Positions 28,550 to 64,000 of a stretch of 64,000 bases of DNA are shown in pieces. The notes under the pieces were generated by a model. The model did no database searches. It was not told where the DNA came from and saw only the letters and a list, made by a program, of their open reading frames with translations. The position numbers and the translations under genes were made by a program. The DNA comes from Fervidobacterium gondwanense DSM 13020 (GTDB taxonomy: Bacteria > Thermotogota > Thermotogae > Thermotogales > Fervidobacteriaceae): contig NZ_FRDJ01000011.1 of NCBI RefSeq assembly GCF_900143265.1, forward strand, positions 1-64,000, in the 5' to 3' direction. Every line of letters begins with the position of its first letter. Position 1 is the first letter of the stretch.

Positions 28550-30559
28550 TTAATCTTTCCAGTTCACTAAGATAACTGCGAACTCGCCGGGTTGGAGGTT
28601 AACTGGTATAGTGTTTCCGAGCTCAAAGCCAAGCTTTCTCTTACCGAACCTTGTTATCAGTCTTACATCTTTGGCTTTGATATCTCTTCCAACTGTCTCT
28701 TTCAGAAATACTTCAACATATTTTTCATGAACAAGATTAAGATTTCCAAGCACAATTGCGCCTATATCTCCTTTCCAGTAGCTGTAGTTAGCGGTTGTGC
28801 CATCTTGATAGCTTAGATAAACATATCTAAATACTCCATCCATAACTTTTTCAATCTCTTCTCTCAATCCCAAGAGCCATCTTAAATAGTTGTACATATC
28901 TTTGCTTGCTTTGTCCCAGTGCATTGCGTAATAGTCGAAGAACGCAAGTTTACCATAGAATTGGTCATCGGGTGGTAGGACTGTCTTACCATAAATGGTG
29001 TTATCTAACCCAAGATTCATCGGTTGTATTTCTTCTATTTCCTGACCGCTGTTGATGTACGGTATAGAATTCGGCGACAAGTACAGTAATGCTGGTGCAA
29101 GGTATTTTAACTTATTTCCATTTTCCCTTGCCACAACCCTCGGAGTGTCTGGTGTTTCACAAGATGCGATGTAAGGAACCTCTAAATTTGGCACTATTTC
29201 TTCTATGAACTTGTAAAATTCACTCGGTCGTGCCGAAGCGTACCAGCTGTTTCCGAGTATACATTCGTACCCTTCACTCTTAGCTTTCTTGTCGTTCTTC
29301 ATTTCAAGTTCTTCTGCAATAAATCCGAATGCTGGGTCAATTGCCTTTGCCGCTGAGATTATCATGTCTTGAAGTTCCGATGGCAATGCATGTCCCATAT
29401 CGATTCTTGCGCCATCTATTCCAAATTTCTTCTGATAAGTTGGTACTATGTTTGCAATATATTCCCACAGCCTTTTGTTTGGCTTCTTGCCTGGAAATTT
29501 GCTTGATTTTATTACGTCGAATAACACATACGGTGGTTGGTCTTTTGAAACGTATTTCTGACTCGCTTCGGGATGGTCGAGGTACAGCCTGAAGAATGTA
29601 ACATCATCCCAAGTCGGTTGCGGGTCATTTACCCAGTCTGAGAAGCCCGGAGGTGTTATTATCCCAAACTCTTTGGCTATATTTGAAAGTATATCTCCTT
29701 CCATCTTCTTAACCTTTTCCCATTTTTCAGGGTCTAATTTATCAGGCGATAACGTGAATTTCTTAAGGTGTTGTTTCACTTCTTCCGAAGAATAAATTAT
29801 TTCAAGGTCTTCTGGGTCTGGAATTTTGAATGGCAGTTCTGGTATGTGAGGTGGCTTATAGTTTGCGACCTCTTCTATCTTTATCCAGTAGAACCAGTCT
29901 GGGTGAGTTTTAATCAAGTCACTATCTCTCGCTGCTGTCCTTGGTATGAAATCAAGGACTACGCGTATTCCAAGCATGTGTGCTGCCTGAACGAGCGCTT
30001 TGAACTGTTCTTCAAGTTTGATGCCTTCCAAGAGAGGATCTGCGTAGCTCTCGTCAAGTTCAACAGGATTCTTGACAGCGTACGGTGAACCAACCTCGCC
30101 TTTCTTAAAAACATCGCTCATCTTTGAAATCGGTAGCATGTACAGAACATTGATGCCCAATTCTTTAAGATATGGGAGCAAGCCTATCATCTTCAAAAAC
30201 GTCCCAGACTCTTTGTAGCCAAAAATGTCCTCCGGTTCGAATGCGCCAAATCCTTTGTGGTTGTAAGCTACTGTTGCTCTTGGCAACGCTCCATACATCT
30301 TTGCCTTTCTGAGCCAACTTGCATCGCTCTCACCGTTGATTTGGGCAAGTGACTTGGAATAATCCAGTCCCTTATCGTTTTCTAAAATCGAATCAATAAC
30401 AGCAGCGAAATATTCGTATGGATCGACAAAGTATCTTCCATCCTTCATGGAAAGCTTTCCAGAATAATTTGAAATAAGCCAGTGTGACGGGATAGCATAA
30501 AGTGTTTTTCCTGTGATTTTCTTTTTCAAATACTTGCTAAGTTCCTTCAATTCTTTCAT
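28550..30559 (-). CDS. GH13-family maltosyltransferase
   Basis: 669 aa from the ATG six bases after GGAGGT; a first ATG two codons earlier touches the ribosome-binding site. The sequence closely follows my recollection of Thermotoga maritima maltosyltransferase (TM0767): YAIPSHWL-type N-terminus, VLDFIPRTAARDSDLI, GARIDMGHALP (catalytic Asp), FIAEELEM (acid/base Glu) and CETPDTPR (third Asp). That enzyme moves maltosyl units between maltodextrins and releases little free sugar. No signal peptide, so it is cytoplasmic and would act on imported maltodextrins or stored glucan. It matches the extracytoplasmic amylase cluster at 55-62 kb, though it is not linked to it. Confidence 0.9.
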   Translation of the reverse strand: MKELKELSKYLKKKITGKTLYAIPSHWLISNYSGKLSMKDGRYFVDPYEYFAAVIDSILENDKGLDYSKSLAQINGESDASWLRKAKMYGALPRATVAYNHKGFGAFEPEDIFGYKESGTFLKMIGLLPYLKELGINVLYMLPISKMSDVFKKGEVGSPYAVKNPVELDESYADPLLEGIKLEEQFKALVQAAHMLGIRVVLDFIPRTAARDSDLIKTHPDWFYWIKIEEVANYKPPHIPELPFKIPDPEDLEIIYSSEEVKQHLKKFTLSPDKLDPEKWEKVKKMEGDILSNIAKEFGIITPPGFSDWVNDPQPTWDDVTFFRLYLDHPEASQKYVSKDQPPYVLFDVIKSSKFPGKKPNKRLWEYIANIVPTYQKKFGIDGARIDMGHALPSELQDMIISAAKAIDPAFGFIAEELEMKNDKKAKSEGYECILGNSWYASARPSEFYKFIEEIVPNLEVPYIASCETPDTPRVVARENGNKLKYLAPALLYLSPNSIPYINSGQEIEEIQPMNLGLDNTIYGKTVLPPDDQFYGKLAFFDYYAMHWDKASKDMYNYLRWLLGLREEIEKVMDGVFRYVYLSYQDGTTANYSYWKGDIGAIVLGNLNLVHEKYVEVFLKETVGRDIKAKDVRLITRFGKRKLGFELGNTIPVNLQPGEFAVILVNWKD

Positions 30560-30605
30560 ACACATACCTCCTATACTTTAGCGTACGCTTCATATCATTC
30601 ACGTA

Positions 30606-55017: not shown

Positions 55018-56985
55018 CTAAAAATTCACGTAACCGCTAAGAGTTATGGTATTAGACATTATGTTAGAAATGTCTGGATTTTCGATTCTAAGGTTGATAC
55101 CTTTTTCTTTGTTAAATAAACCGAGCAGCAGGTAAAACTTAGCTGGCGATTCGTATCCCGCTCCAATCTTGTAATTTTCAGCAATATACGTGACTTCTGC
55201 ACTTATATCTAATGAAAAAATACCAAATGAACCTGACGCCTTTAAAGTCTCATTCCCAAGAGCCAAAGTTCCGACAACTCCAACCTTTTCACCATCGAAA
55301 TCGGCTGAAAAACCGAACTGTTCTGCTTCCAAGCCGAAAGCAAAATAGTAGCTGTTGTCAAGGCTGTAAAGTCCAACTACTGAGATGTTCACTGGAGATT
55401 GCAAAGAAAATTCACCAACAGCTGAATAATCATCAGTATAATAATCTTTTGCACCGTAAACCTTCAAGCCGCCAAATTCAAGACCGGCTATAAACGGAAG
55501 TTTGTTGTTCTCGTGTCCCAAGCCAAGAACAAATTTGGTGTCTTTAAATAGATCATAAGAAAGAACTATTCCGGTATCTTTTCCTTCAACGGGTAGTGCC
55601 CATGCCTGTCTATAGTGAAAACTTACGAGCAGACCGTTATTCTTGAGTGTTAGCAATGCATTAGAGATCACCGCTCCCCCGTAGGTCAAAGAAATTGAAA
55701 AGTCTGGGTTGGGATTGAAAGAAAGCGTAAGCTTACTTGTCGCACCTGTGAAAACAAGATAGTTAGTTGAGTTTGTTTGGAACGAATAAGAGAATTCGTA
55801 TTTTCCTTTCACGGGCAGTCCATCGGTCTGAGCCTCCGCTCCTTCTATTTTTAGAGTTCCATCTTTCTGCACGAGATTGAAAACACCGTTCTTGCCACCG
55901 TATCCATCTGGTTCGTACCCTGGTGCATACGGGTCTTCTTCCCAGACATCATTTCCGCCTATAACAAAAACGAACTTGTATTTGTGGATGCCAGGCTGGA
56001 GTGCAAGTGTCGTTACCCAGTAACCATCAATAAGCTGCATTTTCTGGCCTCTTGGATTCCATCCATTGAATGTTCCTGCAAGGTAGGCTTCCTGCGCGTT
56101 ATCCTTCTTAGCAACGAACATAACCTTACCATCGACAATTGAGAGTCCCGGTTTTAAAACTTGATGTTTCGTCTGTTCTACTTTTGTTACTCTGGTCTCT
56201 GTTGTTTGTGGCTTCTCTGGTTTTTCGGCGCTTTCTGATACGGCACCCGCCGGTGCCCTGACAATTAATTTTCCACCTTCTCTTACAACCTCAAAGACAC
56301 CGTTTTGACCACCGAAACCATCGTCTACAAAAGCAAACGCATTAGGATCAACAATCCAGTTTCCGTCAACAACAAACTTGTATTCATAAATACCAGGCTG
56401 GAGCTCAACAACAGCTTCCCACCAGCCATCTTCAATGAAATAGAGTGCCATATCGTCGGCTTTCCAATTATTGAATGAACCTGCGATGAAAGGTTGCTTT
56501 GCACCTTTGTTGTAGTATCTGATAATTACATAGCCATCGACATCTACAAATATAGTATCTTGTCGCTTTTCGTTGAGAATATATTTCTTACCAGTATCTT
56601 TACCTGCTGTAGAAGTACCACTCATTCCCAATATTTTCCCTTCTGGAGTAAGCGTGAACAACCCATTTTTGCCACCGAAACCATCGTCTGTATAAGCAGG
56701 AGCCTCGGGGTCTTCTTTCCAGGTTTTTCCGTCTATAACGTACTTATACTGGTACGTTCCCGGCTTCAATTCAACTTCATAAACCCATGTATCACCAACA
56801 AGTTTCATGGGCCAAGCGGTTGGACTCCAGTTGTTGAACGTCCCTGCAAGATAAACAACCTGTGCTTGTGCTTTAAATGTGAAGACAACTTTCCCGTCTC
56901 TGTACTCAACAGCTGCAAAGACGAGAGAAAACGCGAGTAAGATGACAACAATGATAAGGTTTCTCAACAGCCTCAAACTCCTCAT
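55018..56985 (-). CDS. Exported triple CBM48/AMPK-type glycan-binding protein with beta-barrel C-terminus
   Basis: 655 aa. Signal peptide 1-24. Three glycogen-binding-type modules at about 28-112, 144-233 and 283-371, each with the same signature: a FxAGxFNxW start (LAGTFNNW, IAGSFNNW, LAGTFNGW), a (K/Q)PGxYxYK(Y/F)V core and an end DDGFGGKNGLF. Tandem modules of this kind bind alpha-glucans. Residues 390-655 form many amphipathic strands with a terminal aromatic (YVNF), as in an outer-membrane barrel. No catalytic GH domain follows, so it is a binder/anchor rather than an enzyme. Inferred location is the toga. Last gene of the amylase gene set; strong terminator after it. Confidence 0.78.
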   Translation of the reverse strand: MRSLRLLRNLIIVVILLAFSLVFAAVEYRDGKVVFTFKAQAQVVYLAGTFNNWSPTAWPMKLVGDTWVYEVELKPGTYQYKYVIDGKTWKEDPEAPAYTDDGFGGKNGLFTLTPEGKILGMSGTSTAGKDTGKKYILNEKRQDTIFVDVDGYVIIRYYNKGAKQPFIAGSFNNWKADDMALYFIEDGWWEAVVELQPGIYEYKFVVDGNWIVDPNAFAFVDDGFGGQNGVFEVVREGGKLIVRAPAGAVSESAEKPEKPQTTETRVTKVEQTKHQVLKPGLSIVDGKVMFVAKKDNAQEAYLAGTFNGWNPRGQKMQLIDGYWVTTLALQPGIHKYKFVFVIGGNDVWEEDPYAPGYEPDGYGGKNGVFNLVQKDGTLKIEGAEAQTDGLPVKGKYEFSYSFQTNSTNYLVFTGATSKLTLSFNPNPDFSISLTYGGAVISNALLTLKNNGLLVSFHYRQAWALPVEGKDTGIVLSYDLFKDTKFVLGLGHENNKLPFIAGLEFGGLKVYGAKDYYTDDYSAVGEFSLQSPVNISVVGLYSLDNSYYFAFGLEAEQFGFSADFDGEKVGVVGTLALGNETLKASGSFGIFSLDISAEVTYIAENYKIGAGYESPAKFYLLLGLFNKEKGINLRIENPDISNIMSNTITLSGYVNF

Positions 56986-57023
56986 TAATTAACACACCTC
57001 CCGATTTTTCTCATAATTATTGA

Positions 57024-58238
57024 TTACCACCAGGTATTTATATTGATGTTTAGAACTGGTTTGAAAGGATTGTTCCCTGCAAAATCTCCATTTCCAACCT
57101 GAACTGAAACTTGGGCATTTTGGAATCCTGTCAGTTTCAGCTCACCAAAGAAGAAATCTTTTTCCTCGTAGTATCCGATTATCTTCTGGTATTTTGCAAA
57201 TGTAGAGACGTTACCGAATGATTTGCCAAGCTCAATGTAGTACAATTCCCCTATTGTATTCACTGAGCCATGGATAGGTTTTCCAAAAGAGTATGATGCT
57301 TTACCAGAGAAATCCATCAAAGTAAAGGTGCTTCCAAAGGTAACTAAGAACTTACCCCACTCGGTCGGCATTAAGCCGGTAATACTTGAAAAATCTGTCT
57401 TTTTAAGGTTTATAAAAAACATTCCATAGCTTATGTCAACACCTGCTTCAGAATTGTTGAGTAAATCATCTAAAGTATTCTCAAAATCGAAGTTCGTGTT
57501 CAAATAAGCATTAAATGCAGGAGTGGTACCAAATTTGTACCACGCAGTGACAACGTTCTGATTGCTCACATATGTTGGGCTGAGAGCTAATCTTGAATCG
57601 GGCGCTCCGGCGAGGATGTACCTAACGCCCCAGTTGTAATTACCTTCAGCAACTGAGAAGAACAAAAAGCTATTCTTAGTTTCGAAATTTAGAACGTCTT
57701 GCTGGATTAATTCATAATTCAAATTAAGCCCTACTACCTTTTGATAGCCCGCAAAGGCTACATCAAATTTGTTGTTCCTTTTACCGAAAATGAGGTTGTG
57801 ATTTTGAACGGCTGGTACTGGCAGTTCTAAATACATTACATCTCCACTTAAAAGAAGCTTGCCAATAGCTGAGTTTATATCTATCCCATCCCTACCCCCG
57901 TCTACTTTGTACAACACAACAGGGTCATTTGTGGTAATAAATCCAACATTCTTGTACAGATTAAGCTTTACATCGGCCAGCTTTAACGAAAGCTTTGCAG
58001 ATTCTAGATTGCCGTCCTTCAAACTCACCGAAAGGTCAAAATCTCTACCAAAAGCAGTTGGATTCATCCTGAACTCTGTTGAAAGAGATGTTGTCAGTGC
58101 GCCAAAGCCGTTTGAAAAGTCAATACCAAGTGAGAAATTAGCAGAAAACGTCGACTGCAAAGCGAAGACACTTACTACTGAGAAGAATATACACAAAAGC
58201 AGTGCAAACTTCTTACTCATGACTTTGAAATTTCTCAC
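57024..58238 (-). CDS. Predicted outer-sheath beta-barrel protein
   Basis: 404 aa from a GTG eight bases after GAGGTG; the longest frame begins six codons earlier at a TTG overlapping the ribosome-binding site. Signal peptide (KKFALLLCIFFSVVSVFA). The mature protein is a long series of amphipathic strands (FSANFSLGIDFSNGFGALTTSLSTEF, KASYSFGKPIHGSV) ending in WW. No family recognised. Its place between two glucan-binding genes suggests a pore or anchor for dextrins, by analogy with maltoporin or SusC; this is inference. Confidence 0.72.
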   Translation of the reverse strand: MRNFKVMSKKFALLLCIFFSVVSVFALQSTFSANFSLGIDFSNGFGALTTSLSTEFRMNPTAFGRDFDLSVSLKDGNLESAKLSLKLADVKLNLYKNVGFITTNDPVVLYKVDGGRDGIDINSAIGKLLLSGDVMYLELPVPAVQNHNLIFGKRNNKFDVAFAGYQKVVGLNLNYELIQQDVLNFETKNSFLFFSVAEGNYNWGVRYILAGAPDSRLALSPTYVSNQNVVTAWYKFGTTPAFNAYLNTNFDFENTLDDLLNNSEAGVDISYGMFFINLKKTDFSSITGLMPTEWGKFLVTFGSTFTLMDFSGKASYSFGKPIHGSVNTIGELYYIELGKSFGNVSTFAKYQKIIGYYEEKDFFFGELKLTGFQNAQVSVQVGNGDFAGNNPFKPVLNININTWW

Positions 58239-58308
58239 GCCATCATCACCTCGCAAAATAGCAAGTCACTCTTCAATCTCTTTTAAATCTCATAGAAAAT
58301 TATCTACA

Positions 58309-59070
58309 TTATTTCTTCGTGTATTCAACTTTCAGCAATGAAAATTTCGGGTTATATGTGATTTTGATATCATAAGTGCCATTCTCTGGGAAAGTAACAG
58401 AACCATCCTGCCCCATACCGGCATCGTATTTTTTGCCATCAAAATTCAATTCCCAAGGTTTCCAATCATTATCGGTTCTCGAAAGCTTGAATTTGTACTC
58501 ACTCTTGGTCACACTGAAGTTTGTTTTCTCGTATACGAAGACCTTGTTAGTATCGTCCCAGGTCATAACGCCCTGAGCTAACGTCCAGTTATTGAGTTCC
58601 CCGCCTATTGACCAAGTTTTTTGAATTGTTTTGAACTTTTCGCTATCCCCGACGCCCTTTGCTAGACCATTTTCCATTGTTGTTGGTGTTGCATATATCG
58701 TCAGTTTTGCATCAGAGCCAAGGTTTTCTTTCCAAACAGGAATTGCGGAAGAAACCTTCGTAACACCATCAGATTTATAAATAACCTTGTACCAACCAAT
58801 AGAAAATTCACTCCCTGATCGGCTTGGGTTAAACGTAATGGACGCTACAGGCAGTTCGAACACATATGCATTTTCTGTGCTGCTGTAACTCATCCTATCA
58901 CTTTCTGTTGGAACCCAGCCGTTCCATTCCCCAACGACGTATACACCATCTGGCAACTGCAAATTGAGAATCCTCATACAACTTGAAGCGGTTCCAAGAA
59001 GAAATAAAAATAGTACAAAAACCAAAACCATGTATATGATTCTCTTAGTATTTTTGTTTAGGTTTCTCAA
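58309..59070 (-). CDS. SusE/SusF-like starch-binding lipoprotein
   Basis: 253 aa, TTG start with GGGGTGAT upstream. Hydrophobic leader (IIYMVLVFVLFLFLLGTASSC) ending in a lipobox-like Cys, though the lipobox is weak. Two small beta-sandwich modules: about 36-125 (GVYVVGEWNGWVPTESDRMSY) and 148-250 (WSIGGELNNWTLAQGVMTWDD, KLSRTDNDWKPWELNFDGKKYDAGMG, FPENGTYDIKITYNPKFSLL). The second resembles Bacteroides SusE/F starch-binding modules. Between the amylase-side lipoprotein gene and the barrel gene. Confidence 0.75.
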   Translation of the reverse strand: MRNLNKNTKRIIYMVLVFVLFLFLLGTASSCMRILNLQLPDGVYVVGEWNGWVPTESDRMSYSSTENAYVFELPVASITFNPSRSGSEFSIGWYKVIYKSDGVTKVSSAIPVWKENLGSDAKLTIYATPTTMENGLAKGVGDSEKFKTIQKTWSIGGELNNWTLAQGVMTWDDTNKVFVYEKTNFSVTKSEYKFKLSRTDNDWKPWELNFDGKKYDAGMGQDGSVTFPENGTYDIKITYNPKFSLLKVEYTKK

Positions 59071-59113
59071 AGAAGATCACCCCTTTTCAATAAACGGTAT
59101 GCATTTACTATTA

Positions 59114-59137
59114 AAGAAGGGGCATAAGCCCCTTCTT
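59114..59137 (-). terminator. Hairpin between the two lipoprotein genes
   Basis: Perfect stem AAGAAGGGGC/GCCCCTTCTT with loop ATAA; the minus-strand follow-on is TAATAGTAAAT rather than a T run. It may partially end transcription or stabilise the upstream message. Confidence 0.65.
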
Positions 59138-59176
59138 GATTAAGAATGAAAATCACAAATTCCAGTTGTTATTTTA

Positions 59177-59857
59177 TTACTTTGTTGGATTTGATATTGT
59201 CTTCTTTATAACGACCGGTGCTGTGTATCCACCATCACCAGTTTCAAACCCTTGATTTGGATAGAAATCTCCTGCCCATTGTTTTCCATTGTCGTCAACT
59301 CCACCAGTTAAAACGAAAACGGCTCTCAGAGACAACTTTGAAGCGTCTGTAACACCCAAGTTTGCGAGTGGAACTGCAATTTCAACTCTCTTACGACCGC
59401 CCGTTGTTTCGGTTGATGCTAATGTTACCGATACACCCGTTGCTTCGCTGCTTGTAAATCTCCAAGCATTGTAACCGTTAGCCCATGTTTCGATGACAAA
59501 ATCAACGTCTCCTTTTTCAAATTTGTATTGTCTGCCCCACGGATGTTTCGACGTATCAGCTGCGCCTGTTACACCAGAAAGATCAACTATAACCATGAAG
59601 TTGTTGTAGCCTTCTTTCGTAAATTCTCCAGCAATATACAAGTTCGTAGCATCAAAGAGTATGCCAGCTTTGTGGATCTCGTTGTTTACTCCCCATTGTG
59701 AGTCCGTCGCACCGTCTGTGTAAACGTAACTTTCCCAATCCGACAAGTTCCCGTCAACTGTTACAGTCTTGAGCAATGGTGGTTTTTGCAGTAAATCACA
59801 ACTTGCAATCATCAAGCCAACAAGAACAACCGTAAATACCCACAGTACCTTTTTCAT
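59177..59857 (-). CDS. Lipoprotein with carbohydrate-binding (CBM9/DOMON-like) domain
   Basis: 226 aa. Clear lipobox LMIASC within MKKVLWVFTVVLVGLMIASC, so probably lipid-anchored. After a short linker one beta-sandwich domain (VTVDGNLSDWESYVYTD, NLYIAGEFTKEGYNNFMVIVDLSG, KFEKGDVDFVIETWANGYNAW, RVEIAVPLANLGV). The DGxLSDW start and the two-sheet pattern recall CBM9 and the glucodextranase C-terminal domain. 181 bases after the amylase gene; whether it has its own promoter is unclear. Confidence 0.75.
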   Translation of the reverse strand: MKKVLWVFTVVLVGLMIASCDLLQKPPLLKTVTVDGNLSDWESYVYTDGATDSQWGVNNEIHKAGILFDATNLYIAGEFTKEGYNNFMVIVDLSGVTGAADTSKHPWGRQYKFEKGDVDFVIETWANGYNAWRFTSSEATGVSVTLASTETTGGRKRVEIAVPLANLGVTDASKLSLRAVFVLTGGVDDNGKQWAGDFYPNQGFETGDGGYTAPVVIKKTISNPTK

Positions 59858-60038
59858 ACCTTCTTCCTCCCTCCTTGAGAATATGAAACTTTTCTCTTTT
59901 CGTAAAAATATGTACTGACATCAGCCGAAGAACTAAGAAAGTTGTATTGCCATAACCAAATAAGAATTTTAGCACTTTTATTACGAATTTAAAATCTTCT
60001 TGTGGAACAATTTCCATAGTCATGTTGTGACTGTACTT

Positions 60039-61700
60039 TCAGTTCTTGACAAACACGTATATTTGCCTTGGGTTGACTGTCCAATTTGTGTTCTGTCCCA
60101 GCGGCGCTTCATTCTTAGGACCAAATTCAAAGTTGGTATCATTGAAGAACGCATACCACACCCATTTGTACCCAGCCGGGACTGTAAAGGTATTTGACCA
60201 CTGTGGGTCAAGGTTTATCAACACGAGGATTTCTTGTGAACCGTAAGTTCTTTTTATCGCTATCAAGTTTTTCCAATCTCTCTCAACCGTTATCGTCCCT
60301 TTAGAAAGTGCTGGATAAGTTTTCCTCAGGTTTATGAATTCCCTGAAGAAGTTCAAGATTGTGTAGCCATTCTCCTGCTCCTGCACAGAAACTCCATCGT
60401 TTGGTTCATCGTACATCGCACCATCCACATTTGCATTGCCAAAGGTTATGTTCTTTGCTTGATAAACCGATTTTGTCCAGTAGGTCTGACCTGTTCCTGA
60501 TTGCGCTGTGTACCACTGCATCGGTTCTCTAACTGGCATGTCCCACGGGTCAGTTCTCCATTTCCAGCCCCTTAATCCTATTTCACAGCCATAGTAGATC
60601 GTTGGGATTCCTTTCAAAGATAGCAAAACAGCATTTGTTAGTAAATATTGCTTAGTGCCGTTAGTAACATTTCCTGAGTATTTTTGATCAATTAGAACAG
60701 ATATCCACCTGTCAAGGTCGTGGTTATCTATGAACGGGAAGTGGTATGATGCTAGGTAGTACGTATTTGAATTAACCCAGCTTATTGCGTTTTGGAGTAG
60801 GTTGTCTTGTCCTTCGTAGTTTGACCTTATGTTGTACATAAATGTGAAGTTGAACACTGGCAGTGGTGCGAACTGTGACAAAACAGATGGATTGCCATCG
60901 AAGACTTCACCCACAAGTATTACGTCGTTTCCATACTTGGTTCTGATATAACTTTCTATCTGCCTCGCTACTTGAGCGGATTGGGTAATTCCATCATCCC
61001 AGTCCCACCCCATGTAGTGCTTTGGAGCGTCGAGCCTGAATCCATCAACACCTACAAGATACCAGAAATCGATTATCTTTTTAACTTCTTCCATAACTGC
61101 CAGGTTGCTGAAATTCAAATCTGGCATTGACAGGTCGAACAAGCCAAAGTACCAGACCTTCTGTCCTTTTGAGTTCATCTTCCAATGCCAGTGGGCATGC
61201 CCGCTTTTGTCCTCAAGTGTCATTATATAGTAGTTCCAGTATGGTGAGCTTGTTGTGTTCTCAACAGCATCTTTGAACCACGGATGCGTGTTTGCTGTGT
61301 GATTGACAACAAGGTCCATTACAACCCTTATTCCATTCTCATTCAATATCTTCAACATTTCTTTGAACTCTTCGAAAGTTCCATAGTCCGGCTCAACATC
61401 ATAGTAATCTTCTACGTCGTATCCGTGATAAGACTTTGCCTTGTTAAACGGCAAAAACCAGATTGTATCGATACCCAATTCTTTGAAATATTCAACTTTC
61501 TGAGCTACCCCGCGAAAGTCCCCTATTCCATCTCCGTCTGAATCGTAGAAGGAACGTATGAGGAGCGAATACATCGTGTTCGAAGACGGTTCTGGAATTT
61601 CTGTCTTTTTCTTAAGCTGTAGTAACGCACATGAATGCGTCAATATTAAAATGATGGAAAGTGTTACAATAAGATACAAGAACTTTTTATTCACTCGCAC
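60039..61700 (-). CDS. amyA: Lipoprotein alpha-amylase (GH13)
   Basis: 553 aa from a GTG after AGGAGTGACA; a longer frame begins six codons earlier at an ATG whose codons overlap the ribosome-binding site. Lipoprotein leader ending in ILTHSC. All GH13 regions are present: DLVVNHT (I), GFRLDAPKH with the nucleophile Asp (II), VGEVF with the acid Glu (III) and FIDNHDLDR (IV). GDGIGDFRG is an early conserved turn. T. maritima has a similar lipoprotein amylase, AmyA, of about the same size. It hydrolyses starch outside the cytoplasmic membrane. Start of the glucan gene set; its promoter has two palindromes. Confidence 0.92.
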   Translation of the reverse strand: MRVNKKFLYLIVTLSIILILTHSCALLQLKKKTEIPEPSSNTMYSLLIRSFYDSDGDGIGDFRGVAQKVEYFKELGIDTIWFLPFNKAKSYHGYDVEDYYDVEPDYGTFEEFKEMLKILNENGIRVVMDLVVNHTANTHPWFKDAVENTTSSPYWNYYIMTLEDKSGHAHWHWKMNSKGQKVWYFGLFDLSMPDLNFSNLAVMEEVKKIIDFWYLVGVDGFRLDAPKHYMGWDWDDGITQSAQVARQIESYIRTKYGNDVILVGEVFDGNPSVLSQFAPLPVFNFTFMYNIRSNYEGQDNLLQNAISWVNSNTYYLASYHFPFIDNHDLDRWISVLIDQKYSGNVTNGTKQYLLTNAVLLSLKGIPTIYYGCEIGLRGWKWRTDPWDMPVREPMQWYTAQSGTGQTYWTKSVYQAKNITFGNANVDGAMYDEPNDGVSVQEQENGYTILNFFREFINLRKTYPALSKGTITVERDWKNLIAIKRTYGSQEILVLINLDPQWSNTFTVPAGYKWVWYAFFNDTNFEFGPKNEAPLGQNTNWTVNPRQIYVFVKN

Positions 61701-61727
61701 TGTCACTCCTTTTTTCATCTCGTTACT

Positions 61728-61833: not shown

Positions 61834-62829
61834 TTATTTCAATTTCCCTTCCTGCACTGGATAACAAGCCACATAGTGTCCGGGAGAAACTTCTTTGAGT
61901 TCAGGATGCGGGTCTGTTTTGCACCTCTCTTCTTTGAATGGGCATCTGTCGTAGAATCTGCATATTGGGGGTGGGTCAATTGGTGCGCTGATGTTGCCTA
62001 TGATGTTCGGTTCGTTCCTCTTGTACTCTGGATCAGGTACTGGAACTGCATCCATAAGCGCTCTTGTGTATGGGTGCATCGGGTTGTGGAGTAGTTCTTC
62101 TGTTTCTGCAAGTTCGACAATTTTTCCAAGGTACATAACTGCTATTCTGTTAACCATGTACCTTGCAACCGCCAAATCATGCGTAATGTACAAATAGCTC
62201 ATTTTGTGCGTCTGTTGGAGTTCCATCATCAAGTCCATAACAGCAGTCCTGACTGAGACGTCCAACATCGATGTCGGTTCGTCTGCGACTATTAGTTTCG
62301 GGTTCAGAACGAGTGCCCTTGCGATAGCAACCCTCTGCCTCTGTCCACCTGATAATTCGTGCGGATATCTCCACAGGAAACTGTCAGGTGGGGTGAGTCC
62401 TACTTCCTGAAGCAAACTCGCTACTTTGTCTTCCCTTTCTTCGAGCGTACCAACGTTGTGTATGTTTAAAGGTTCTGCGATTATGTCAAATATCGTCATC
62501 CTCGGGTTTAGTGATTCGTACGGGTCTTGGAATATCATCTGTACCATGCCGTGGTATTCCATTCTTTCGTACTCTTCTATTGGTTTTCCAAGCACTTTGA
62601 TGCTCCCGGCTGTCGGATTTTCAAGTCTGACAACCATTCTTCCAGTCGTAGTTTTTCCACAACCAGACTCCCCAACAAGACCTATAGACTCTCCTTCGAG
62701 TATTTCAAATGATACATCATCAACAGCATGTACAAAATGTTTTGCCCTCGAGAATAATGCTCTCTCTGCCGGGAAGTATTTTTTCAGATTCTTTATCTCA
62801 AGAAGTACATTTTTATTTTCTGAACGCAT
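61834..62829 (-). CDS. Opp/Dpp-type ABC transporter ATPase (DppF-like)
   Basis: 331 aa. Walker A GESGCGKTT, Q-loop IFQDPYESLNPR, signature LSGGQRQRVAIARAL, Walker B KLIVADEP, H-loop YITHDLA. The C-terminal oligo_HPY region has four cysteines (CRFYDRCPF ... C ... C), a known feature of Opp-type ATPases that may hold a metal. In Thermotogales this family carries oligosaccharides as often as peptides. Overlaps the upstream ATPase gene by 17 bases. Confidence 0.95.
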   Translation of the reverse strand: MRSENKNVLLEIKNLKKYFPAERALFSRAKHFVHAVDDVSFEILEGESIGLVGESGCGKTTTGRMVVRLENPTAGSIKVLGKPIEEYERMEYHGMVQMIFQDPYESLNPRMTIFDIIAEPLNIHNVGTLEEREDKVASLLQEVGLTPPDSFLWRYPHELSGGQRQRVAIARALVLNPKLIVADEPTSMLDVSVRTAVMDLMMELQQTHKMSYLYITHDLAVARYMVNRIAVMYLGKIVELAETEELLHNPMHPYTRALMDAVPVPDPEYKRNEPNIIGNISAPIDPPPICRFYDRCPFKEERCKTDPHPELKEVSPGHYVACYPVQEGKLK

Positions 62830-63814
62830 CTTTTCTCACCTCTTCTGTAAGCGGATGCCAGCATGATATGTAGTGTCCTTTTTCGACCTCTTGGTATGGT
62901 GGCTCCTCGTTTCTACATTTGTCTGTTGCCCATGGACATCTTGGCGCAAATCGGCACCCGGTAGGTGGATTCAATAAGTTAGGTGGCTCACCTGGAATCG
63001 TGAACAGTTTTTTCTTTTCTCCAACGTGGCTTGGGAATGCGTTCATGAGCAAGAATGTGTATGGGTGCATCGGACGTTTGAAAACGGTTGTCGAGTCAGC
63101 TTGTTCTACGAATTTTCCAGCGTACATGACAGCAATTTTGTCGCTGACTTCAGCGATAACGGCGATATCGTGCGAAATATAAATCATCGCCATGTTGAGC
63201 TCTTTTTGTATCTTTTTCATTTCTCTGAGTATTTTATCTTGCACTATAACGTCCAAAGCAGTTGTCGGCTCATCCGCTATTATGACCTTCGGGTCACATG
63301 AGAGAGATAGAGCGATGACTGCTCTCTGCTTCATACCGCCGCTGTACTGGTGAGGATACTGGTCCATCCTCTTTGGATCGAGTGTCACGAGTTCAAAGAG
63401 TTTAGCAACTTTTGAACGTGCTTCATCAATAGGAGTTTCTGGATAGTGGTTCAGTATCGCTTCAACAATTTGGTCGCTGATTCTGTAAACAGGGTTCAGC
63501 GAGTTCATAGCCGCTTGGAAGACCATCGAGATGCCTTTCCATCTGTAATGTCTCATCTGCTCTTCTTCTAGGCTAACAAGGTCAACCATCTTGCCATTAT
63601 CGTTAAACCACACATGTCCACCCATGAATTTTGCATTCTCTGGAAGTATTCTCAGAAGAGTCATTGAAACCGATGTCTTACCGCAACCAGACTCTCCAAC
63701 AATTCCGAGGCTCTCTCCGGCTTCCAGTTCAAAAGATATACCATCAACGGCTTTGACATAGCCCATTTTCGTTTTGTAATGCATCTTCAAATCTTCAACT
63801 TTTAGCACTGCCAT
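62813..63814 (-). CDS. Opp/Dpp-type ABC transporter ATPase (DppD-like)
   Basis: 333 aa from the ATG after GAGGTGATAACC; the longest frame begins at the GTG of that ribosome-binding site. Walker A GESGCGKTS, LSGG region altered to YSGGMKQRAVIALSL, Walker B KVIIADEP, TTALDV D-loop, YISHDIA. oligo_HPY tail with cysteines (CRFAPRCPWATDKC). Pairs with the next ATPase as the heterodimeric motor. Substrate unknown. Confidence 0.95.
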   Translation of the reverse strand: MAVLKVEDLKMHYKTKMGYVKAVDGISFELEAGESLGIVGESGCGKTSVSMTLLRILPENAKFMGGHVWFNDNGKMVDLVSLEEEQMRHYRWKGISMVFQAAMNSLNPVYRISDQIVEAILNHYPETPIDEARSKVAKLFELVTLDPKRMDQYPHQYSGGMKQRAVIALSLSCDPKVIIADEPTTALDVIVQDKILREMKKIQKELNMAMIYISHDIAVIAEVSDKIAVMYAGKFVEQADSTTVFKRPMHPYTFLLMNAFPSHVGEKKKLFTIPGEPPNLLNPPTGCRFAPRCPWATDKCRNEEPPYQEVEKGHYISCWHPLTEEVRKDAFRK

Positions 63815-63819
63815 GGTTA

Positions 63820-64000
63820 TCACCTCTTCCTAAGTCTTGGGTTTACGATTTCTTCAAGTCCTCTTCCGAGGAAATAGAAAGCTGAACACAAGAGAGTAAT
63901 TGCACCGCCAGCTGGTACCCACATCCACCAGTAAGCTCCTATGTTGCCTGACCCCAGGTATCCAGAACTCCAAACGGTGTTAATCATCAATCCCCAAGAC
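63820..64000 (-). CDS. Opp/Dpp-type ABC permease (DppC-like), C-terminal part
   Basis: About 60 codons at the window edge, ending in TGA five bases before the ATPase start. The peptide runs SWGLMINTVWSSGYLGSGN, then YWWMWVPAGGAITLLCSAFYFLGRGLEEIVNPRLRKR. SWGLMI and the LGRGLEEIVNPRLR ending are typical of the C-terminal end of DppC permeases. The 5' part lies beyond the window. Confidence 0.9.
   Translation of the reverse strand, partial: SWGLMINTVWSSGYLGSGNIGAYWWMWVPAGGAITLLCSAFYFLGRGLEEIVNPRLRKR

Follow-up and report, generated by a model that had tools for sequence, protein, structure and literature searches.

How polysaccharide fragments pass the outer sheath (toga) of the deep-branching Thermotogota is essentially unknown, and a locus of Fervidobacterium gondwanense DSM 13020 raises the question whether candidate parts for this passage can be named. 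The window analysed is the first 64,000 nucleotides of contig NZ_FRDJ01000011.1, and the locus in it comprises five adjacent minus-strand open reading frames (ORFs), here called P1 to P5 (Table 1). A preliminary description of this DNA had presented them as a Sus-like set for the capture and degradation of glucans. In our study, the locus is read, with a probability of roughly two in three, as a conserved Thermotogota outer-membrane locus for the acquisition of starch and maltodextrins. The computed evidence consists of the gene content and the conservation of its order, the modules of the proteins, the prediction of two barrels, a shared palindrome and a conserved hairpin.

Table 1. Features of the P1-P5 locus, in window positions
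Feature	Position	Strand	Basis
P1, AmyA-type GH13 alpha-amylase lipoprotein	60039..61718	-	Pfam, PDB, lipobox
TATAAT, probable -10 box of P1	61728..61733	-	read in the sequence
Operator-like palindrome TGGAAATTGTTCCA (minus strand), P1-P2 gap	60003..60016	.	common to pulA and malE
Promoter-like TTTAAA-16-TAAAAT for P2, TG before the second hexamer	59966..59993	-	just after the palindrome; consensus match
P2, exported lipoprotein, unclassified module	59177..59857	-	lipobox IASC; orthologues
Conserved intercistronic hairpin AAGAAGGGGC-TTAT-GCCCCTTCTT	59114..59137	-	shuffle tests
P3, lipoprotein, two E-set-type modules	58309..59070	-	alignment, hhalign
P4, predicted outer-membrane beta-barrel, ~24 strands, no plug	57024..58238	-	AlphaFold, fold matches
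P5, signal peptide, three CBM48/AMPK modules, C-terminal barrel of ~20 strands	55018..56985	-	
Intrinsic terminator after P5	54946..54971	-	

All five ORFs are present at these coordinates and, since orthologues of each occur elsewhere in the same order, they are genes. Among 103 Thermotogota genomes surveyed, P4 was found in 33 and P3 in 39, and in every P4-bearing genome, from three families, P3, P4 and P5 are adjacent, in one order and on one strand (in Marinitoga lauensis P4 is split into two reading frames). P2 orthologues take the equivalent position in most clusters. A GH13 amylase gene adjoins the P3-P4-P5 core in 18 of the 33 genomes: in genus g5 and in six Fervidobacterium genomes AmyA precedes the core, in six Thermotoga genomes the core stands between an upstream AmyA and a downstream PUD/CBM48/GH13 pullulanase, and five Petrotogaceae have a different, unrelated GH13 gene upstream, whose product shares ~22-28% identity with P1 and, in the single case compared with Pfam, gives E 5e-24. 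The last but one group is genus g13, which we take to be Thermotoga from its match to the solved amylase 5m99, a Thermotoga protein. The remark in the preliminary description that no equivalent is standard for the Thermotogales does not hold, as the same locus is present in Thermotoga, Thermosipho, Marinitoga and relatives; no earlier description of it was found.

This distribution also bears on a structural explanation, in which P4 and P5 would mainly build the sheath, P5 tying it to alpha-glucan on or under it, and the neighbouring amylases would be merely co-regulated. Barrels are the predominant proteins of the toga (PMC3387000), P5 probably has its CBM48 modules in the periplasm (see below) and the core stands without GH13 neighbours in several genera, all of which is in line with such a role. 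A structural need should, however, not give the patchy spread of P4, which is absent from genera g6-g12 of the same order, nor the repeated independent pairing of the core with GH13 enzymes and pullulanase, and we consider this explanation quite improbable.

In Thermotoga the genes form a tight six-gene run, amyA-P2-P3-P4-P5-pulA, with gaps of 12, 4, -11 to 1, 15 and 17-24 nucleotides, whereas in F. gondwanense PulA is encoded away from the locus (contig C16) and a hairpin stands between P2 and P3. TM1840-TM1845 are contiguous in the published T. maritima gene list (PMC2246101); the orthologous locus should be this run, with TM1841-TM1844 as P2-P5 and thus as the candidate parts for the passage across the sheath. 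Searches of the open-access literature for TM1841-TM1844, for a Sus-like system in Thermotogae and for toga porins yielded no functional description. One paper on the toga names only OmpA, OmpB, AmyA and XynA as its established proteins (PMC3387000). The locus would thus apparently represent an undescribed, phylum-wide alpha-glucan outer-membrane system of the Thermotogota.

The enzymatic part of the locus is P1, whose reading as a lipoprotein GH13 amylase has been confirmed by the Pfam Alpha-amylase match (E 1.6e-68), the lipobox LTHSC and the comparison with solved structures, among which alpha-amylase 5m99 comes first (E 1.9e-175 over residues 48-558). P1 thus has the GH13 domain with a lipobox that marks a SusG-type protein and SusG is among its PDB relatives (1e-48), but the AmyA-type 5m99 is far closer. 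Because the product of the Thermotoga gene in the same position hardly differs from 5m99 along 505 residues, P1 is assigned to the AmyA type; it has T. maritima-group orthology, a lipoprotein signal and a place in the amylase cluster, as this type has. In T. maritima, AmyA (TM1840) is the one amylase whose presence in the toga has been demonstrated (PMC3387000). From the positions of the Shine-Dalgarno sequence and the -10 box, the true start of P1 is probably GTG 61700, as GGAG (61709-61706) lies downstream of the listed ATG. In other Fervidobacterium (L044:9902-12526, L045, L046) the AmyA orthologue has a ~340-residue N-terminal extension which is absent in P1 of F. gondwanense.

The glucan-binding potential of the locus lies in P5 and P3. 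PF16561 (CBM48/AMPK) matches P5 in three stretches (1.4e-36), so that P5 stands, as described earlier, as an exported protein with three such modules before a barrel-like C-terminus, and the W, K and W glucan-contact positions of the modules are aligned with those of AMPK beta-2. P3 is a lipoprotein, as had been stated, with the lipobox SSC; its modules had been called SusE/F-like. The match of P3 to SusF is weak (E 0.03; profile 0.49), whereas its profile matches the CBM48 part of P5 with an hhalign probability of 97.4% (E 1e-11), and CBM48 kinship is preferred to SusE/F homology. The W-K-W triad of the second module of P3 is invariant in 24 homologues, its W, YK and W positions align with the AMPK beta-2 glycogen-binding domain, and the invariant residues of the P3 alignment are C31, M32, W162, K195 and W203. 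The P5 modules and module 2 of P3 thus share these positions with AMPK-beta/CBM48 proteins but are fused to an outer-membrane barrel (P5) or a lipid anchor (P3), and we know of no other CBM48 module in either arrangement. As P3 has no linker after the lipidated cysteine and begins with a strongly conserved CMxLLNL, in which C and M are invariant, it is likely to be packed on the membrane or a barrel rather than to act as a flexible arm.

Related modules occur in other contexts. P3-like modules are found within a 2221-residue pullulanase-type protein (L077:6314-12979) and within a 2913-residue lipoprotein that also has leucine-rich repeats and an SBP_bac_5 domain (L062:5364-14105). An exported protein (G000:C6:83119-85104; L085:8120-10105) has two CBM48 modules ~50% identical to those of P5 together with a Glucodextran_C domain, and in Thermosipho (L091, 1190 residues) the same modules are joined to a GH57 catalytic domain.

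Both P4 and the C-terminal part of P5 are predicted to be outer-membrane barrels, in agreement with the preliminary description. The AlphaFold model of P4 (~377 residues) is plugless (predicted local distance difference test, pLDDT, 73.6), and the strand counts of ~24 (P4) and ~20 (P5), for which the alignments were shallow, may err by two. The amphipathicity of the strands against shuffled strands gives z 5.2 for P4 and 5.8 for the C-terminus of P5, in comparison to -0.2 for the CBM48 strands used as control, and both proteins end in a terminal W/F. The 50 top fold matches of P4 are nearly all outer-membrane barrels, the first being the 24-strand FimD usher, though these matches are of low TM-score and only the barrel class can be taken as safe. 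No Pfam match was found for any of 23 P4 homologues, neither to a transporter family nor to LamB. Although the P4 ORF started from TTG reaches 58256, its start is probably GTG 58238, from the Shine-Dalgarno and -10 positions. The barrels of P4 and P5 match each other over the first strands (hhalign 90.9%), and it is possible that they are paralogues; shared barrel composition could also explain the match. Kinship of P4 with a 449-residue outer-membrane-like ORF elsewhere in the genome (L088) was rejected (hhalign probability 0.7%), as was a classical type Va autotransporter nature of P5, which has ~20 predicted strands against the 12 of the translocator and no autotransporter Pfam match.

In outer-membrane barrels the long loops usually lie outside, the short turns inside, and both ends are periplasmic. 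In the two models the odd-to-even connections have a mean of 9.3 and 5.9 residues and the even-to-odd ones of 3.4 and 2.7. By this rule, the even strand number and the short even-to-odd turns place the CBM48 modules of P5 probably in the periplasm. The surface location implied in the preliminary description is thus at odds with the predicted topology, which also runs contrary to a simple view of P5 as a trap for starch at the surface and points rather to the retention of incoming chains.

The first fold match of P4 also invites another explanation, that P4 and P5 serve in export or display and carry AmyA, P2 and P3 (or PulA) outside the sheath, in the manner of SLAM barrels or ushers. The route by which Thermotogota place lipoproteins on the surface is unknown, and the type IX secretion plug model is matched, short of its cut-off, by the modules of P3 (3.5e-4) and P5 (4.5e-10), which would suit an exporter; this match, however, reflects the shared module type, and CBM48 modules with a glucan-binding triad would be odd in a general exporter. 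Of the 21 genomes with AmyA (E below 1e-100), 18 have P4 as well, and the presence of AmyA without P4 in the remaining ones (G078, G080 and G082) speaks against a need for P4 in its display. With the palindrome described below, which links the set to malE, export appears unlikely.

The preferred reading of P4 as an import channel leads to the comparison with known glucan systems. In the Sus system of Bacteroides (SusCDEFG), SusC is a TonB-dependent transporter with a plug and SusD its lid (PMC7618045). As in Sus, the present locus clusters genes for a GH13 lipoprotein, presumably at the surface, for putative glucan-binding lipoproteins and for a barrel predicted in the outer membrane, and the proposed logic is likewise that of holding, cutting and importing the glucan. 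These similar parts and the weak P3-SusF match might speak for a genuine Sus system that was taken over from Bacteroidota. But searches of the whole genome found no PF07715 (TonB-dependent Plug), PF07980 (SusD) or PF02472 (ExbD), while the same searches were positive in Bacteroides (TonB itself was not searched for); P4 is small, plugless and without Pfam kinship to any transporter family, a second barrel carries CBM48 modules, and homology is limited to GH13 and perhaps the E-set modules. Membership in Sus is refuted by these missing defining parts, and acquisition from Bacteroidota is hardly credible. The kinship with Sus suggested at the outset is therefore not retained, while the outer-membrane alpha-glucan capture and degradation set itself is supported by the predicted barrels and glucan-binding folds and by the conserved order. 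Two of the three grounds for refutation given in the preliminary description, those on structures and on gene order, accordingly fell away, and starch-linked expression, the third, gains indirect support from a palindrome that the locus has in common with pulA and malE (see below).

The E. coli maltoporin LamB with MalEFGK2 offers a second comparison: LamB lets sugar through the outer membrane without TonB and is regulated together with MalE and amylolytic enzymes. An arrangement of this kind is proposed here too, but the Thermotogota locus has additional binding lipoproteins and a CBM48 barrel, and identity of P4 with LamB was rejected (no LamB profile match; ~24 predicted strands against 18). 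The locus may work like Sus with a separate ancestry, and it is best read as a starch system that corresponds to Sus without homology to it and without TonB. If true, the Sus-like logic of binding, cutting and importing at the outer membrane arose with unrelated channels and without TonB.

Co-regulation with the maltodextrin genes is suggested by the palindrome TGGAA-N4-TTCCA, found by comparison of upstream regions. Of its five exact copies in the genome, two fall within ORFs and three are intergenic, the latter 146 base pairs (bp) before P2, 98 bp before pulA (contig C16) and 79 bp before malE (contig C13), whose product matches T. maritima MalE2 (6dts, 3.8e-140) and which adjoins a gene for a MalF-like permease. 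In relatives the 14-mer lies close upstream of amyA (L044, L045, L046, L052), of the amylase gene of two Petrotogaceae (twice in L074, once in L075) and of P2 (L044, L049, L053, L054, L055, L057), and also upstream of a CBM48-Glucodextran_C protein (L090), of malE (L110, L127) and of CBM48-GH57 proteins or a CBM48 ORF in their place (L091-L094), the amyA, P2, CBM48-GH57 and malE cases being of Fervidobacteriaceae, although these loci were picked for holding such genes and form a biased sample. Probably amyA/P2-P5, pulA and malE are one alpha-glucan regulon, and the palindrome is proposed as an operator of maltose and starch genes; the T. maritima regulon reconstruction of Rodionov et al. lists no regulator for the Mal pathway (PMC3750489). 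LacI-family regulator genes near the CBM48-Glucodextran_C gene (L085:16849-17823, L090:2696-3733) encode candidate binders. Another palindrome, CTTTCGAAAG at the P1 promoter, was rejected, being present only here and not in relatives.

P2 appears to have its own promoter, and the five genes may therefore form two transcription units in F. gondwanense. As a promoter scan of the region gave 14 matches against 14.5 in shuffled sequences, the promoters are placed by context only. P2 itself is an exported lipoprotein, as described earlier, whereas its CBM9/DOMON label was not confirmed, no profile or structure match being found. A match to TIGR04145 is below the cut-off. P2 is a single module here, and further modules are fused to it in other genera.

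Between P2 and P3 a GC-rich hairpin, mostly followed by a T-rich stretch, is kept in position in Fervidobacterium, Thermosipho, Marinitoga and Petrotogaceae, with sequences that differ between genera; the short Thermotoga gap is without it. Against mononucleotide shuffles it reaches p<=0.005 in 15 of 26 P2-P3 gaps and <0.05 in most others, in comparison to none of the 18 gaps inside P3-P4-P5 (p<=0.005). In several genera fewer than ~30 nucleotides separate the hairpin from the P3 start, too few to hold a promoter, so that transcription of P3-P5 must pass the hairpin. We infer a leaky terminator or a stabiliser of the mRNA 3' end, which would make P2 more abundant than P3-P5 and probably tunes the stoichiometry. 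The malE-malF hairpin, which raises the upstream over the downstream product, is a parallel.

Taken as a mechanism, the preferred reading extends to location, binding, direction of transport, co-regulation and stoichiometry, which we infer from the sequence. AmyA, as an outer-sheath lipoprotein, would cleave long alpha-1,4-glucans at the surface, while P2 and P3 would keep the glucan close to the membrane. P4, a wide plugless barrel, could pass maltodextrins without TonB, and P5 would be a second barrel whose three CBM48 modules, on the N-terminal, periplasmic side, bind and retain the incoming glucan. PulA would then trim branches and MalEFG import the products, with the shared palindrome making the genes one regulon and the hairpin setting P2 in excess of P3-P5. 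A more detailed version, an independently evolved second starch importer in which P3 caps P4, P5 pulls or retains glucan in the periplasm, one alpha-glucan operator serves all and TonB plays no part, is put forward tentatively, as possible but at less than even odds.

Several points weigh against the starch-acquisition reading. The barrel models rest on 6-7 sequences (pLDDT 74 and 79; predicted TM-score, pTM, 0.61 and 0.42), and the low TM-scores of the fold matches count here as well. P2 has no Pfam match up to E 1 and nothing convincing in the PDB, so that its fold is unclassified. Thermosipho, Marinitoga and some others have the core P2-P5 with no GH13 gene next to it. The attention to the palindrome was post hoc; neither the sequence upstream of P1 in F. 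gondwanense nor the amyA promoter of Thermotoga has an exact copy, and in 20 genomes 178 sites stand against 106 of the reversed pattern, a moderate excess, which is what a handful of functional sites per genome would give.

Two further observations concern the surroundings. In most Fervidobacterium, P1 is immediately preceded on its strand by an Opp-type ATP-binding cassette (ABC) transporter set, with two ATPases, further ORFs and an SBP_bac_5 binding protein (window 61834-63823 and L087:4821-10662), which may have a sugar substrate. Farther away, a 671-residue ORF (window 28550-30565) gives a weak GH13 match (E 3e-8) and has a conserved TGGAAAGCTTTCCA ~100 bases inside its listed start.

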